Source: Clostridia bacterium 41_269
GTDB taxonomy: Bacteria > Bacillota > DTU086
Assembly: GCA_001508005.1 (NCBI GenBank)
Contig: LGEZ01000014.1
Location: forward strand, 1 to 56,649
Length of the DNA stretch: 56,649 nucleotides
Reading direction: 5' to 3'
The notes beneath the pieces were generated by a model. It saw only the letters and a list, made by a program, of their open reading frames with translations, had not been told where the DNA came from and ran no database searches. Position numbers and translations under genes: made by a program. Below, piece by piece: positions 1 through 56,649 of this stretch; position 1 is the stretch's first letter, and each line of letters opens with the position of its first letter.

Positions 1-165
1 GTTATGGGCAAAACCGGACCGCCCCAAATTCGACGTCCTGTCTCAGTTGGGGCTGGCGCTCACATCCTATTCGCGCCTCCCGGTTTTGCTTTACGCTTCG
101 CTAAGAGCTGTTAACCAGTGCTCGTTAAGTCGTTTCGCAAACCGCAGCAGAGACTTACTAAGATT
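1..165 (+). repeat. Dispersed structured element, copy A (candidate ncRNA)
   Basis: This stretch matches 47422-47586 without gaps at about 88% identity (19 differences in 163 positions by hand count, 17 of them transitions). It can fold as a three-way junction: P1 pairs 6-17 with 80-91, P2 pairs 21-27 (GCCCCAA) with 47-53 (TTGGGGC), and P3 pairs 55-59 (GGCGC) with 73-77 (GCGCC). Differences between the copies that fall in the stems exchange Watson-Crick for G-U pairs. A Rho-independent terminator follows at 192-218. It may continue before the window. I do not recognise the family; strand is assigned from the downstream terminators. Confidence 0.6.
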
Positions 166-191
166 TACTTAAGAGGGTTTGTCAGCAAGTT

Positions 192-218
192 AAAAAGCCC
201 CATTATCGGGGCTTTTTT
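192..218 (+). terminator. Rho-independent terminator after repeat copy A
   Basis: The stem AAAAAGCCCC / GGGGCTTTTTT has a short loop (ATTATC) and ends in a T run. It closes whatever is transcribed through copy A and separates it from yabP. Confidence 0.85.
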
Positions 219-13218: not shown

Positions 13219-13722
13219 ATGGTGCACGAGGTTTTTTTGGGTCTTGGTACAAACCTTGGATGCAGGGAAAAAAATCTCAGGGATGCCCTAAATAAAGTCA
13301 GGAACCATGAAAAAATTTTTTTAGAAAGAACATCGTCCATTTACGAAACCCGACCGGTGGGCGGTCCCCAAGGACAGCCCTGGTTTCTTAATATGGTGGT
13401 TCAAGTTAAAACTTATCTTAAACCCCATGATCTGTTAAGGGAGCTTAAGGCCATTGAGAAGGAAATGGGTAGAAAGCCCGGGGTGCGCTTTGGACCCAGG
13501 GAAATAGATCTGGACATCCTTCTTTTTGACAGTGTAACTATTAAAACTGATCAGCTGGAGATTCCCCATCCAAGGCTCAAAGAGAGGGCTTTCGTGCTAG
13601 TTCCCCTTCTTGAAATTTGTCCCGCTGCCAGGCTTCCCGACGGTACCCTTCTTAAGGGTGTTCTTGAAAAGCTTAATCCTTCTTTGGAAGATGTTGTTTT
13701 TTATAAGGGCTCTCCGATATAA
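13219..13722 (+). CDS. folK: HPPK: hydroxymethyl-dihydropterin pyrophosphokinase
   Basis: FolK transfers pyrophosphate from ATP to hydroxymethyl-dihydropterin, directly before FolP in the pathway. The motifs FLGLGTNLG, RPVGGPQGQPWFLNMVV, GRKPGVRFGPREIDLDILLF and IPHPRLKERAFVLVPL are complete, including the two Asp of the metal site. It is the last gene of the folP-folB-folK group; the next operon has its own RNA leader. Confidence 0.94.
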   Translation: MVHEVFLGLGTNLGCREKNLRDALNKVRNHEKIFLERTSSIYETRPVGGPQGQPWFLNMVVQVKTYLKPHDLLRELKAIEKEMGRKPGVRFGPREIDLDILLFDSVTIKTDQLEIPHPRLKERAFVLVPLLEICPAARLPDGTLLKGVLEKLNPSLEDVVFYKGSPI

Positions 13723-13749
13723 AAGTGGGATGTAATATCTTCTGCTTTA

Positions 13750-13780
13750 TCCGCTTGGATCCTGTGAGGACCGAGACGGA
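13750..13780 (+). ncRNA. Candidate pan-motif RNA (leader of the pantothenate operon)
   Basis: One hairpin has stem segments TCCG, CTTGG and TCCT pairing with AGGA, CCGAG and CGGA around a GTG loop. A single bulged A interrupts each side, at 13759 and 13776. Two conserved bulged adenosines in a stem upstream of pan genes is the hallmark of the pan motif, a presumed cis-regulatory RNA described from comparative genomics. The downstream genes include panC and panD, and a terminator follows at 13798. I inferred this fold by hand. Confidence 0.65.
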
Positions 13781-13797
13781 AGTGGTGATGCTGGTAT

Positions 13798-45817: not shown

Positions 45818-47338
45818 GTGTTAAAAATTATGTACAGCAATGCAGTTAAAAAAGCTGCTGCCGCTTCAGTACTGGCTCTGCTTTTTATTTTTATAATCTG
45901 CCCCTTTGCGGAAGCAGCCGATTCTTACGATCTTCTTCAGGAAGTGCGGAATATAATCCGCGAATATTACTATCAGCCTGTAAATGAAAGGATTTTATAC
46001 AGCAGTGATGATGTGGAGCAGTTAGTGGAGTTTCTAGGAGATCCCTACACCAAGTATTTTTCTCCTGAAGAGTATCAGGAATTTATGGAGGATACCAATA
46101 GTTCTTACGGCGGCGTGGGGATGGAACTGGGCATAAAGGACGGAGCACTGGTAATAATTAGTGTTTTTAAAGGAAGCCCAGCAGAGGCTGCCGGACTTAA
46201 GCCCGGAGATATTATAACTGCCGTGAACGGCAAAAGCATCTATGGAGAAAGTCTTGACAGCGTTGTGAGTATGGTAAGGGGTGAACCGGGAACCAGGGTT
46301 ACCCTTACTGTTGTTAGGGGAGAAAAAAGCTTTGACGTTACATTGACCCGCAAAATTATTGAACTGGAAACGGTGGAATATGGACTTTTGGACAGCGGAG
46401 TGGGATATATCAGGATCACCACCTTTTCTTCCGATGTGGGAGAGAAAACTGAAAAGGCATTGAATGAACTTAAAGCCAGGGGCGCCAGAGGTATAATTCT
46501 TGACCTAAGAAACAATCCAGGGGGTTATCTTTCCTCAGCCCTGGAAGTTGCCGACCTTTTTCTTCCTCGGGGTAAAACCATAATGTTTGTAAAAAACAGC
46601 AGAGAAATTATAAGGCTTGCTGCAGAAAGGCCATTAATTAACACCTTACCTCTTGTGGTCCTTGTGGATCACGGCAGTGCAAGTGCTTCAGAAATTGTGG
46701 CTGCTGCTGTTAAAGAAAATAATGCTGGTATTTTAGTGGGCACCACTACATTTGGGAAAGGGACTGTACAGACCATAATTCCCTTGGACAGCGAAGCTGG
46801 GGCAGCCATTAAGATAACTACTGCTGAATACCTTTCCCCATTGGGTAGAAAGATAAACGGTATAGGAGTAGTCCCCCACTATGAGATTTGGGATCCTGAT
46901 CTTCAGCTTAAAGCGGCAGAGGCCATACTGCTTGGTCATGCACAGAGCGTGGGCAGCTATGGAGGAAGGCTCATAGTTGTGCCCGATGACGGTGCTGCAT
47001 ACTTTAACGGAAAGCTTGTGGCTTCTGGGGAAAGGATTTTTATTTATAAAGGAAACCTTATGGTGCAGGCACGGCTGATTGCCGAAGCCTTTGGAGGAAG
47101 CATGGTTTGGAATCCTCAGAAAAAGGAAGCTGTTCTGAGCCTTGGAGGGCAGAAAATTTATATGGATCTTAAGAAAGGGACTGTAAAGATTGATGGGAAA
47201 GAGGTTAAACTGACGGCAGCACCGAGGATAGTAAATGGAAGGGTTTATATACCCCTCCGTTTATTGTCAAACGTCCGTGGGTTTTCAGTTTATTGGGATG
47301 CCGGCAGCCGAAGGGGTATAATATCACGGCAGCAGTAG
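45818..47338 (+). CDS. C-terminal processing protease (S41) with CuAO_N domain
   Basis: The 506-residue protein has a signal peptide ending near FAEAAD (residue ~30), a PDZ domain (residues ~90-170: GVGMELGIKDGALVIISVFK, SPAEAAGLKPGDIITAVNG), the S41 core with catalytic Ser in HGSASASEIVA near 285 and Lys in TFGKGTVQ near 313, and a C-terminal CuAO_N domain (VNGRVYIPLRLLSNVRGF). GTG 45818 follows GGAGG. The repeat copy B follows directly. Confidence 0.9.
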   Translation: MLKIMYSNAVKKAAAASVLALLFIFIICPFAEAADSYDLLQEVRNIIREYYYQPVNERILYSSDDVEQLVEFLGDPYTKYFSPEEYQEFMEDTNSSYGGVGMELGIKDGALVIISVFKGSPAEAAGLKPGDIITAVNGKSIYGESLDSVVSMVRGEPGTRVTLTVVRGEKSFDVTLTRKIIELETVEYGLLDSGVGYIRITTFSSDVGEKTEKALNELKARGARGIILDLRNNPGGYLSSALEVADLFLPRGKTIMFVKNSREIIRLAAERPLINTLPLVVLVDHGSASASEIVAAAVKENNAGILVGTTTFGKGTVQTIIPLDSEAGAAIKITTAEYLSPLGRKINGIGVVPHYEIWDPDLQLKAAEAILLGHAQSVGSYGGRLIVVPDDGAAYFNGKLVASGERIFIYKGNLMVQARLIAEAFGGSMVWNPQKKEAVLSLGGQKIYMDLKKGTVKIDGKEVKLTAAPRIVNGRVYIPLRLLSNVRGFSVYWDAGSRRGIISRQQ

Positions 47339-47421
47339 ATCCTTTTGAAGAAATTTGTGGGCAATATCTCTTCTGCAGTTTTCTCACTCCAGAACTCACA
47401 CTGGACATCCCTAAGCAAAGG

Positions 47422-47586
47422 GTTAGGGGCAAAGCCGGACCGCTCCAAATTCGACATCCCATCTCAGTTGGGGCTGGCGCTTACCTCCTATTCGCGCCTT
47501 CCGGTTTTGCCTTACGCTTTGCCAAGAGCTGCTAGCCAGCGCTCGTTAAGTCGTTTCGCAAACTGCAGCAGAGACCTGCTAAGGTT
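47422..47586 (+). repeat. Dispersed structured element, copy B (candidate ncRNA)
   Basis: This copy aligns gap-free with positions 1-165. The P1, P2 and P3 stems are kept: in P1 the A-U at position 13 becomes G-U and the G-U at position 7 becomes G-C; in P2 the C-G at position 23 becomes U-G. It lies 83 bases after the S41 protease gene and is followed by a terminator at 47611. Short open frames over it are not credible. Confidence 0.6.
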
Positions 47587-47610
47587 ATAAAAAGAGTTGT
47601 CTTCAGTTTG

Positions 47611-47645
47611 GGCAGCAGTAAATCTGCTGCCTTTATTTTTTATTT
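47611..47645 (+). terminator. Terminator after repeat copy B
   Basis: GGCAGCAG-TAAAT-CTGCTGCC is followed by a long T-rich tract. It ends either the protease transcript or the candidate ncRNA. Confidence 0.85.
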
Positions 47646-53652: not shown

Positions 53653-56649
53653 GTTTTCAGCCTACCTACGAGGGATTGAAACTGCTGTACTGGAGAAAGG
53701 AAGAACTATGGTACTACAGTTTTCAGCCTACCTACGAGGGATTGAAACATAGTGAAGGGGACTTAATTGCCATAGGTAAATACCCGTTTTCAGCCTACCT
53801 ACGAGGGATTGAAACAGTGCATTCGGTTTAATCAAGGTGGAAGGAGACAAGTTTTCAGCCTACCTACGAGGGATTGAAACAGGACCTGATGACCCAGTTT
53901 CACGTTGAGAAGAAAGCGTTTTCAGCCTACCTACGAGGGATTGAAACTTCTCGGCATTTTCGCTATCTACCCAGGCGCACATTGTTTTCAGCCTACCTAC
54001 GAGGGATTGAAACGATGTATGGGGATAGTTTAAATGCCATAAGAGGGCTTGTTTTCAGCCTACCTACGAGGGATTGAAACCTGCATAGACTACATTTACT
54101 CTTTTCGTAACCTCGGGTTTTCAGCCTACCTACGAGGGATTGAAACATACCAGCGATGAGAATATGGCAGTAGCCGCCTTTTTGTTTTCAGCCTACCTAC
54201 GAGGGATTGAAACGTGAAGCAGCCGTAGACATGGCAAGGGCAAAGAAAGTTTTCAGCCTACCTACGAGGGATTGAAACCCGTACCCGTGTCACCTATTAC
54301 CACATCCGCAATCGTGTTTTCAGCCTACCTACGAGGGATTGAAACGTGTGTTTGAAAGCAAGCATCAAAAAACGCAGGACCGTTTTCAGCCTACCTACGA
54401 GGGATTGAAACAACCTCCCAAACTGCCGGTTGGTTTCTCCTGCCCAGGTTTTCAGCCTACCTACGAGGGATTGAAACTAGCAAAAAGAGAAAATGAGGAG
54501 GGTGTAAAAACCGTTTTCAGCCTACCTACGAGGGATTGAAACTTAAACGAACCCCCTTTCAGACGCATTTTCTGCTTCGTTTTCAGCCTACCTACGAGGG
54601 ATTGAAACATCTTCCGGCAGGTCAGAACGCCGTTCTGATGATTGAGTTTTCAGCCTACCTACGAGGGATTGAAACTGTTGTTAATGCTCACCCAAATAAC
54701 CTCCTAAAAGGGTTTTCAGCCTACCTACGAGGGATTGAAACCGACTTACCCAGAGCAGTATTAGAAAGCGAAATCCCTCGTTTTCAGCCTACCTATGAGG
54801 AATTGAAACCAAAAGACATATTCTGTAGCAGTGTATATTGCCTCCGTTTTCAGCCTACCTATGAGGAATTGAAACGGTACAGCATAACCGTGCTGTCTTT
54901 TCCGCCGCTCCAGTTTTCAGCCTACCTATGAGGAATTGAAACAGAAGTGGGTGACGATAATAATGACAATTGTTTGCGGTTTTCAGCCTACCTATGAGGA
55001 ATTGAAACAGTATCAACGGATACGGGGTTTCCGCGGGAAATTTAGTTTTCAGCCTACCTATGAGGAATTGAAACTATCCCAAAGCGTCATGCCTTTATTG
55101 CTGTTCCTCAGTTTTCAGCCTACCTATGAGGAATTGAAACCTGGGAGTGCAGTAATACTGCACTCTTTCGGCTTTGGTTTTCAGCCTACCTATGAGGAAT
55201 TGAAACTTCTATAGCACAAGTCAGGGAATGTGAGTTATCTAGTTTTCAGCCTACCTATGAGGAATTGAAACTTCGATTGTTCTAAAATAGCCTTTGTCTA
55301 TATATTCGTTTTCAGCCTACCTATGAGGAATTGAAACGTTGAAGAGGCTTTACAGAGATTAAATCCTAATAGGGTTTTCAGCCTACCTATGAGGAATTGA
55401 AACTTGCCTTGTTTTGAATACCTATAAAATGCTGCATTGTTTTCAGCCTACCTATGAGGAATTGAAACAGGAAGGGGAGGCAATATACACTGCTACAGAA
55501 TATGGTTTTCAGCCTACCTATGAGGAATTGAAACATCATAGCTTCGCCTATTTTTTCAAGGCCTAATACCGTTTTCAGCCTACCTATGAGGAATTGAAAC
55601 ACAGCCAAACCCTCAGCCATTTGCTGACCGATTTTGTTTTCAGCCTACCTATGAGGAATTGAAACACAAAACATTAGGACTTTTATGCGCAGCAAGGCCC
55701 CGTTTTCAGCCTACCTATGAGGAATTGAAACCTGTTAGTACAAACATAGTTAATACGGCAAAAACAGTTTTCAGCCTACCTATGAGGAATTGAAACACTA
55801 GTACTTACATACTAGGGCAAACCACCTGCCCGTTTTCAGCCTACCTATGAGGAATTGAAACATAAAGTTAGTCATTTTGTTTACCTCCTTTAAAGTTCGT
55901 TTTCAGCCTACCTATGGGGAATTGAAACGCATATAAGAATACCAAAAGCGGACAAAATTTACTCGTTTTCAGCCTACCTATGAGGAATTGAAACACGACC
56001 TTGACAAAATCACCGCAGGCTGGCAGAATGGTTTTCAGCCTACCTATGAGGAATTGAAACTTCATAAAATAGGTGACAAAGCCGAAAGAGTGCAGTAGTT
56101 TTCAGCCTACCTATGAGGAATTGAAACCTCCATAGTGACCAGATGTTATATTGCTTAATATTACGTTTTCAGCCTACCCATGAGGAATTGAAACAATATC
56201 TGCTAGCAGAAAATGAGGCATTCAAAAAAGCAGTTTTCAGCCTACCTATGAGGAATTGAAACTTATTCGCCCTGTTATCAAAATAAAAGACTATGCAAGT
56301 TTTCAGCCTACCTATGAGGAATTGAAACTCTCGATAACTTCGGTCAAAAATTTACACTTCCCCGTTTTCAGCCTACCTATGAGGAATTGAAACACGGTGA
56401 AGGCCGCCGGCAAGAACGAAAAGACCACGTTTTCAGCCTACCTATGAGGAATTGAAACTATTCGGCCAATACCTGATAGGTAGTCCCATAAGCCGTTTTC
56501 AGCCTACCTATGAGGAATTGAAACTTTTCTGCGGGTTTGGTATCAACGATTATTTCCTTCGTTTTCAGCCTACCTATGAGGAATTGAAACCTTCCAGCAG
56601 TTTTTCATAAATAGAGAGGACCCTTTCGTTTTCAGCCTACCTATGAGGA
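53653..56649 (+). CRISPR. CRISPR array, 46 repeats, two repeat variants, open at the window end
   Basis: Repeats are 30 bases, start with GTTTTCAGCCTACCTA and end with ATTGAAAC, as in type I-B/III arrays. I counted 45 complete repeats and one cut at 56649, with 45 spacers of 35-38 bases. The first 17 (53653-54741) have C17 and G22; from repeat 18 (54780) on all have T17 and A22. Single-base variants occur at repeat 35 (55899, A19 to G) and repeat 39 (56165, T15 to C). Leader on the left. No cas genes are in the window. Confidence 0.97.

Follow-up and report, generated by a model that had tools for sequence, protein, structure and literature searches.

A probable IS1182-mobilised MITE that duplicates terminator hairpins and carries a TwoAYGGAY tip in Clostridia bacterium 41_269

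The repeat copies and their surroundings

The window considered here, i.e., the whole 56,649-nucleotide stretch of DNA analysed (contig C17 of Clostridia bacterium 41_269, whose genome is designated G000), holds two copies of a repeat. As described in the initial annotation, positions 1-165 and 47422-47586 align without gaps, here at 88.5% identity, with 17 of the 19 differences being transitions. The features assigned to the two copies and their flanks, together with the basis of each assignment, are as follows.

1-191, plus strand: MITE copy 1, left end lost at the contig start (repeat search, alignment of copies)
6-91, minus strand: three-way-junction tip of copy 1, RF01731 core (P1 6-17/80-91; hairpins 21-53 and 55-77)
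36-38, minus strand: GGA of one hairpin loop, a CsrA-like motif (invariant in 27 sequences)
65-67, minus strand: GGA of the second hairpin loop (spaced 29 nt from the GGA at 36-38)
192-218, plus strand: right-hand copy of the target terminator hairpin, GCCCCATTATCGGGGC and a T-tract (sequence; matching hairpin at locus L019)
47328-47338, plus strand: decayed left copy of the target terminator, GGCAGCAGTAG (single complete terminator and no element at this site in G001)
~47351-47610, plus strand: MITE copy 2, both ends present but degenerate (alignment of copies, flank comparison, empty site)
47427-47512, minus strand: three-way-junction tip of copy 2, RF01731 core (26.6 bits on the minus strand; pairs kept)
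47611-47631, plus strand: right-hand copy of the target terminator hairpin, GGCAGCAGTAAATCTGCTGCC, then a T-tract (sequence; empty site in G001)

The contig begins inside copy 1, such that the left end of this copy is missing. The missing part is probably in contig C13 (L019), where the flank holds a GCCCC..GGGGC hairpin similar to the terminator beside copy 1. At the second site, the ORF upstream (45818-47338) ends within the decayed left terminator, which includes its stop codon. Both copies are indeed followed by terminator hairpins, unrelated in sequence (197-212 and 47611-47631, about 25-31 bases on), and all 24 pairs of the P1, P2 and P3 stems drawn earlier are standard in each copy. The stems of the fold first termed covarying are thus kept, although the covariation itself is weak within the two window copies alone, where changes are one-sided, from Watson-Crick to G-U.

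Elsewhere in the window, ORFs at 280-982, to the right of copy 1, resemble the sporulation genes yabP and yabQ. A match to the pan motif at 13700-13783 (33.6 bits, under the 36.2 cut-off), directly 5' of an ORF at 13796, is probably a pantothenate-gene leader. A long CRISPR array of about 45 repeats (Rfam CRISPR-DR2) occupies 53653-56649 on the minus strand, with the repeat variant changing near 54750. Near the terminator, the rimP motif and other weak Rfam hits were dismissed as generic terminator matches far under the cut-off.

Target sites and candidate mobiliser

When all 30 contigs of the genome (1.67 Mb) were searched, 24 copies or fragments of the repeat were revealed, rather than the two originally counted. 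Alignment of the oriented copies showed the full element to be an imperfect palindrome of ~265 bp that begins CAGCTTGTTGACAAAGGGTCTCTGCTGC, finishes GGTTTGTCTACAGTCTG and bears 15-bp terminal inverted repeats, CAGCTTGTTGACAAA / CAGACTGTNGACAAA. The 165 nt initially delimited correspond to the inner part of this element, which extends ~80 bases beyond them on the left and ~25 on the right. Being short, non-coding and multicopy, with terminal inverted repeats and a target duplication, the repeat presents the features by which a MITE is defined. Contigs C24, C6, C13, C15 and C27 likewise terminate in the repeat, as short-read assemblies break at repeats.

The repeat also gave no fewer than 12 matches in each of two further genomes, the sister genome G001 (MAG JAAYIF01, Clostridia bacterium AS09scLD_70) and G002, a member of the same family; the search of G003, of that same family, returned none. 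Shorter relatives were seen as well. In G000, a ~95-bp solo derivative (L100, C30:24923-25016) has both element ends and no tip, while in G002, further short repeats (L115 and L116) start CAGACTGT.GACAAA. Of these, L116 is preceded by a terminator hairpin and is similar to the A-end of the longer G000 IS addressed below. When the TTGACA of the left end was considered as part of a promoter, a good -10 box was not found.

Well-preserved copies present the same terminator hairpin at both flanks, in direct orientation, with the hairpin differing from site to site, as with GGGCCGTAAAAACGGCCC in both flanks of L002 and CTGCTTCTTAGGAAGCAGTTT in both flanks of L012. For 16 copies, the left and right flanks of a given copy scored a mean of 14.1, as compared to 6.3 for mismatched pairs (maximum 11.5), a value reached or exceeded by 11 copies (0/20,000 permutations). 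Because the loops of the flanking hairpins are on average direct rather than inverted repeats (14.1 vs 11.1), an extended palindrome in place of a target duplication was ruled out; L005, the flanks of which score better inverted, is an exception. In the flanks of the oldest copies (L022-L024), no target duplication was seen.

Examination of the sister genome G001 revealed empty sites with a single hairpin corresponding to L007, L008, L012 and window copy 2. In the case of L012, ACTGCTTCTTAGGAAGCAG is present once, while the site of window copy 2 reads GGCAGCAGTAGGGCAGCAGAAATTGCTGCCTTTATTTTTT, the element being absent. As such, the terminator noted after each copy, while truly present, is not part of the element but rather its duplicated insertion target. 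At the L010 terminator (contig C20 in G000; C64:18119-18389 in G001), the element lies in opposite orientations in the two sister species, and hence at least one independent insertion or an inversion must have occurred. The same arrangement was seen in two other families, represented by G120 and G258, where TwoAYGGAY elements with CAG..TGT.GACAAA-type ends lie between duplicated hairpins; here, 10 of 15 flank pairs scored over every mismatched pair (permutation, 0/20,000). Judged from these sequence comparisons, the repeat is almost certainly a mobile element. The second of the two readings offered originally, that of a structured mobile element, is hence borne out by the ends, the target duplications, the empty sites and a likely transposase family.

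In G000, the termini of a longer IS, with the same 15-bp repeat and the ends CAGACTGTCGACAAA, are found at six contig ends. Two of these, C10 and C21, probably flank a single insertion, since each carries the 27-bp palindrome AAAAGCCCGTCTCAATGACGGGCTTTT without a mismatch. No match to NF033551 was found in the G000 bin, where the IS ends fall at contig ends and the interior falls in assembly gaps. An internal copy in C18, considered as an intact IS, proved to be only a remnant, with no transposase gene. Since the interiors of the G000 IS fall in these gaps, the link to the IS1182 family is drawn from ends shared with the relative G008, in which a search for IS1182 transposases identified two complete IS (L129 and L143) with the same terminal repeats as the MITE. 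L129 spans 1536 bp and contains a 484-aa ORF that matches NF033551 (IS1182; 474 bits) and includes DUF772 and DDE domains. Both IS lie between exact palindromic duplications, L129 between AGCAGAAGTGAAATCACTTCTGCT (24 bp) and L143 between AGAGGCTTTTTAAGCCTCT (19 bp). IS1182 copies in G006 and G018 were rejected as matches to the mobiliser, given their different ends. Because complete IS with the same ends encode an IS1182-family transposase between hairpin duplications, the repeat appears to be a MITE of the IS1182 kind, and its mobilisation by such a transposase is considered likely, with good confidence.

The TwoAYGGAY tip

Membership of the tip in an Rfam family was addressed using covariance-model scores and the 43-bit cut-off of RF01731 (TwoAYGGAY). 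The tip matches this family on the minus strand, in contrast to the initial proposal of an undescribed small-RNA family. The window copies score under the cut-off (35.5 bits for copy 1, in a match spanning 1-127 on the minus strand that is cut at the contig start, and 26.6 bits for copy 2) and are included in RF01731 because they are homologous to four higher-scoring G000 copies at or over the cut-off (43.7-53.5 bits). Scores reach 73.6 bits in G001 and 63.0 bits in G002. Across 300 genomes of the phylum, RF01731 was detected in 47 at E <= 0.01 and in 29 above the cut-off; a single genome often has 5 to 9 scored hits. In G246, the TwoAYGGAY repeats L171, L172 and L174 lie beside GAGTCACGGGGACGGTTCT-type sequences, unlike the IS1182-type ends.

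The AYGGAY-type loops of copy 1 read AUAGGAUGU and ACAGGACGU, with the first loop letter being variable, and GGA is found in both tip loops of nearly all copies. Covariation was considered in 27 diverse sequences from 26 genomes, a sample picked by a structure-aware model and to be read with that selection in mind. In both hairpins, pairs vary among GC, CG, AT and TA far above shuffles, with the first variable pair of hairpin A being standard in 27/27 sequences, as compared to 12 expected. GGA is invariant in both loops, and the loop spacing is 28.1±1.1 nt. RNAalifold applied to a plain MAFFT alignment returned only 3 pairs, because stem lengths vary, and pairs were therefore counted anchored on the GGA loops. 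The same two hairpins hold in G000, G001 and G002 copies recovered by a sequence-only search.

Paired ANGGAN loops are the binding motif of CsrA. A csrA gene was found in G000 and, more generally, in 44 of the 47 genomes with TwoAYGGAY, as compared to 169 of the 253 others (Fisher p = 8e-5, not corrected for phylogeny). When only good-quality genomes were considered, csrA was found in 40 of 41 with TwoAYGGAY (p = 6e-5, again not corrected for phylogeny). A CsrA-binding role for the tip is thus plausible and, if only slightly, favoured. That TwoAYGGAY RNAs bind CsrA was already proposed in 2014 (PMC4333381).

The tip could instead be kept for a DNA-level role in transposition, as a hairpin or cruciform that is recognised by the transposase or during replication, in which case the repeat would be a purely selfish palindromic MITE, with no involvement of CsrA. 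Such an element would agree with the well-supported mobility and with the GGA strand often being antisense to the local gene in G000. However, the same tip occurs inside repeats with other terminal sequences in G246, G178 and G031 and is hence not bound to one transposon type, a poor fit with a role linked to one transposase. Moreover, G008 has complete IS1182 copies with the same ends yet no TwoAYGGAY hits, and both the invariant GGA loops and the co-occurrence with csrA would be left unexplained. This explanation is possible, albeit unlikely.

As to the strand involved, non-standard positions in the copies from the sequence-only search consist chiefly of tandem G·A when read on the minus strand (17/34 and 19/34; 22/34 and 20/34), pointing to this strand as the folded RNA. 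Together with the AYGGAY loops, these conserved pairs favour the minus strand over the plus-strand fold drawn initially. A regulatory RNA derived from the 3' untranslated region on the plus strand, with UCC loops pairing with Shine-Dalgarno sequences, would be in line with the fold z of copy 2 (-2.95 for the plus strand vs -1.77 for the minus strand) and with gene orientation in G000: of 15 readable copies, 12 have their upstream (left) gene on the plus strand, and roughly half are faced on the right by a convergent gene. Nonetheless, the tandem G·A of the minus strand would be U·C mismatches on the plus strand in both hairpins, and elements in G258 and G120 lie in either orientation relative to the terminator, rendering a plus-strand RNA improbable. 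Given that, in G000, upstream genes mostly have the plus strand as their sense strand, there may be little transcription of the GGA strand. Finally, a stand-alone small-RNA gene that is fixed in place, ends in its own terminator and underwent a single duplication could account for the structure and adjoining terminators in the window but can be set aside in light of the ~24 copies, the terminal inverted repeats and the target duplications, having already been refuted by the empty sites.

Proposed mechanism and relation to known systems

The findings are probably best explained by an IS1182-mobilised MITE that duplicates terminator hairpins and the tip of which is most likely a two-site CsrA-binding RNA. 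The ~265-bp non-autonomous element would be moved in trans by an IS1182-family DDE transposase via the shared 15-bp terminal inverted repeats, with a palindromic target that is almost always an intrinsic-terminator hairpin. Staggered cutting at either side of this hairpin, a putative step, would yield a complete hairpin at each end of the insert. Since the downstream hairpin would keep its T-tract, the gene would stay terminated, with the element then presumably carried in its 3' untranslated region. The long palindrome would be tipped by the three-way junction, with its two ANGGAN-looped hairpins kept by compensatory change, and the minus-strand tip would most likely offer two CsrA-binding sites, such that the element may serve as a mobile, multi-copy CsrA decoy. 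More tentatively, TwoAYGGAY may be a transposon-borne CsrA decoy module, i.e., a two-site tip on several unrelated palindromic mobile repeats in csrA-containing genomes.

RF01731 is a catalogued RNA of unknown function (PMC2864571). The tip shares with it two AYGGAY-type hairpins on a long stem, on the same strand, with the four G000 copies noted above passing the cut-off. By contrast, the structure is here part of a terminator-targeting mobile repeat, for which no such description was met in the literature found (PMC2864571; PMC4333381). Relative to IS1182-family IS and their MITEs, the repeat has terminal inverted repeats of the same pattern as those of the G008 IS and palindromic targets but differs in having no gene of its own and in bearing a TwoAYGGAY tip. 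IS1272 and TnSha1, of the IS1182 family, enter hairpins, often terminators, with no sequence preference and in either orientation (PMC5678879; PMC4923244), much as the present repeat inserts into hairpins, mostly terminators. Both delete the target, with no duplication in the case of IS1272 (PMC5678879; PMC4923244), whereas no such stem-loop replacement was seen here. Instead, the whole hairpin is doubled, matching the alternative drawn as "pathway b" in PMC5678879. CsrB, RsmY and RsmZ, which titrate CsrA, are stand-alone small-RNA genes reported from Gammaproteobacteria (PMC4333381). The tip, a putative CsrA ligand, resembles these in having paired GGA loops, spaced such that a single CsrA dimer could plausibly bind both, but is part of a repeat rather than a stand-alone gene.

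MITEs as a kind, RF01731 as an RNA family and the CsrA proposal (PMC4333381) are already known. The co-occurrence of csrA with TwoAYGGAY genomes is new, and neither the identity of the MITE with RF01731 nor the duplication of whole terminators was found described in the literature searched. An orphan Rfam family thereby gains a physical identity, as the structured tip of mobile palindromic repeats, together with a concrete CsrA hypothesis. Transposition that duplicates whole intrinsic terminators is the reverse of the hairpin loss caused by IS1272. With two target hairpins in place of one, genes probably remain properly terminated after insertion, which offers a simple route to tolerance of a transposon. 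If the decoy reading is true, spread of the tip into terminators would make dozens of loci potential sources of RNA that titrates CsrA, by which the Csr regulon would be tuned or hijacked.
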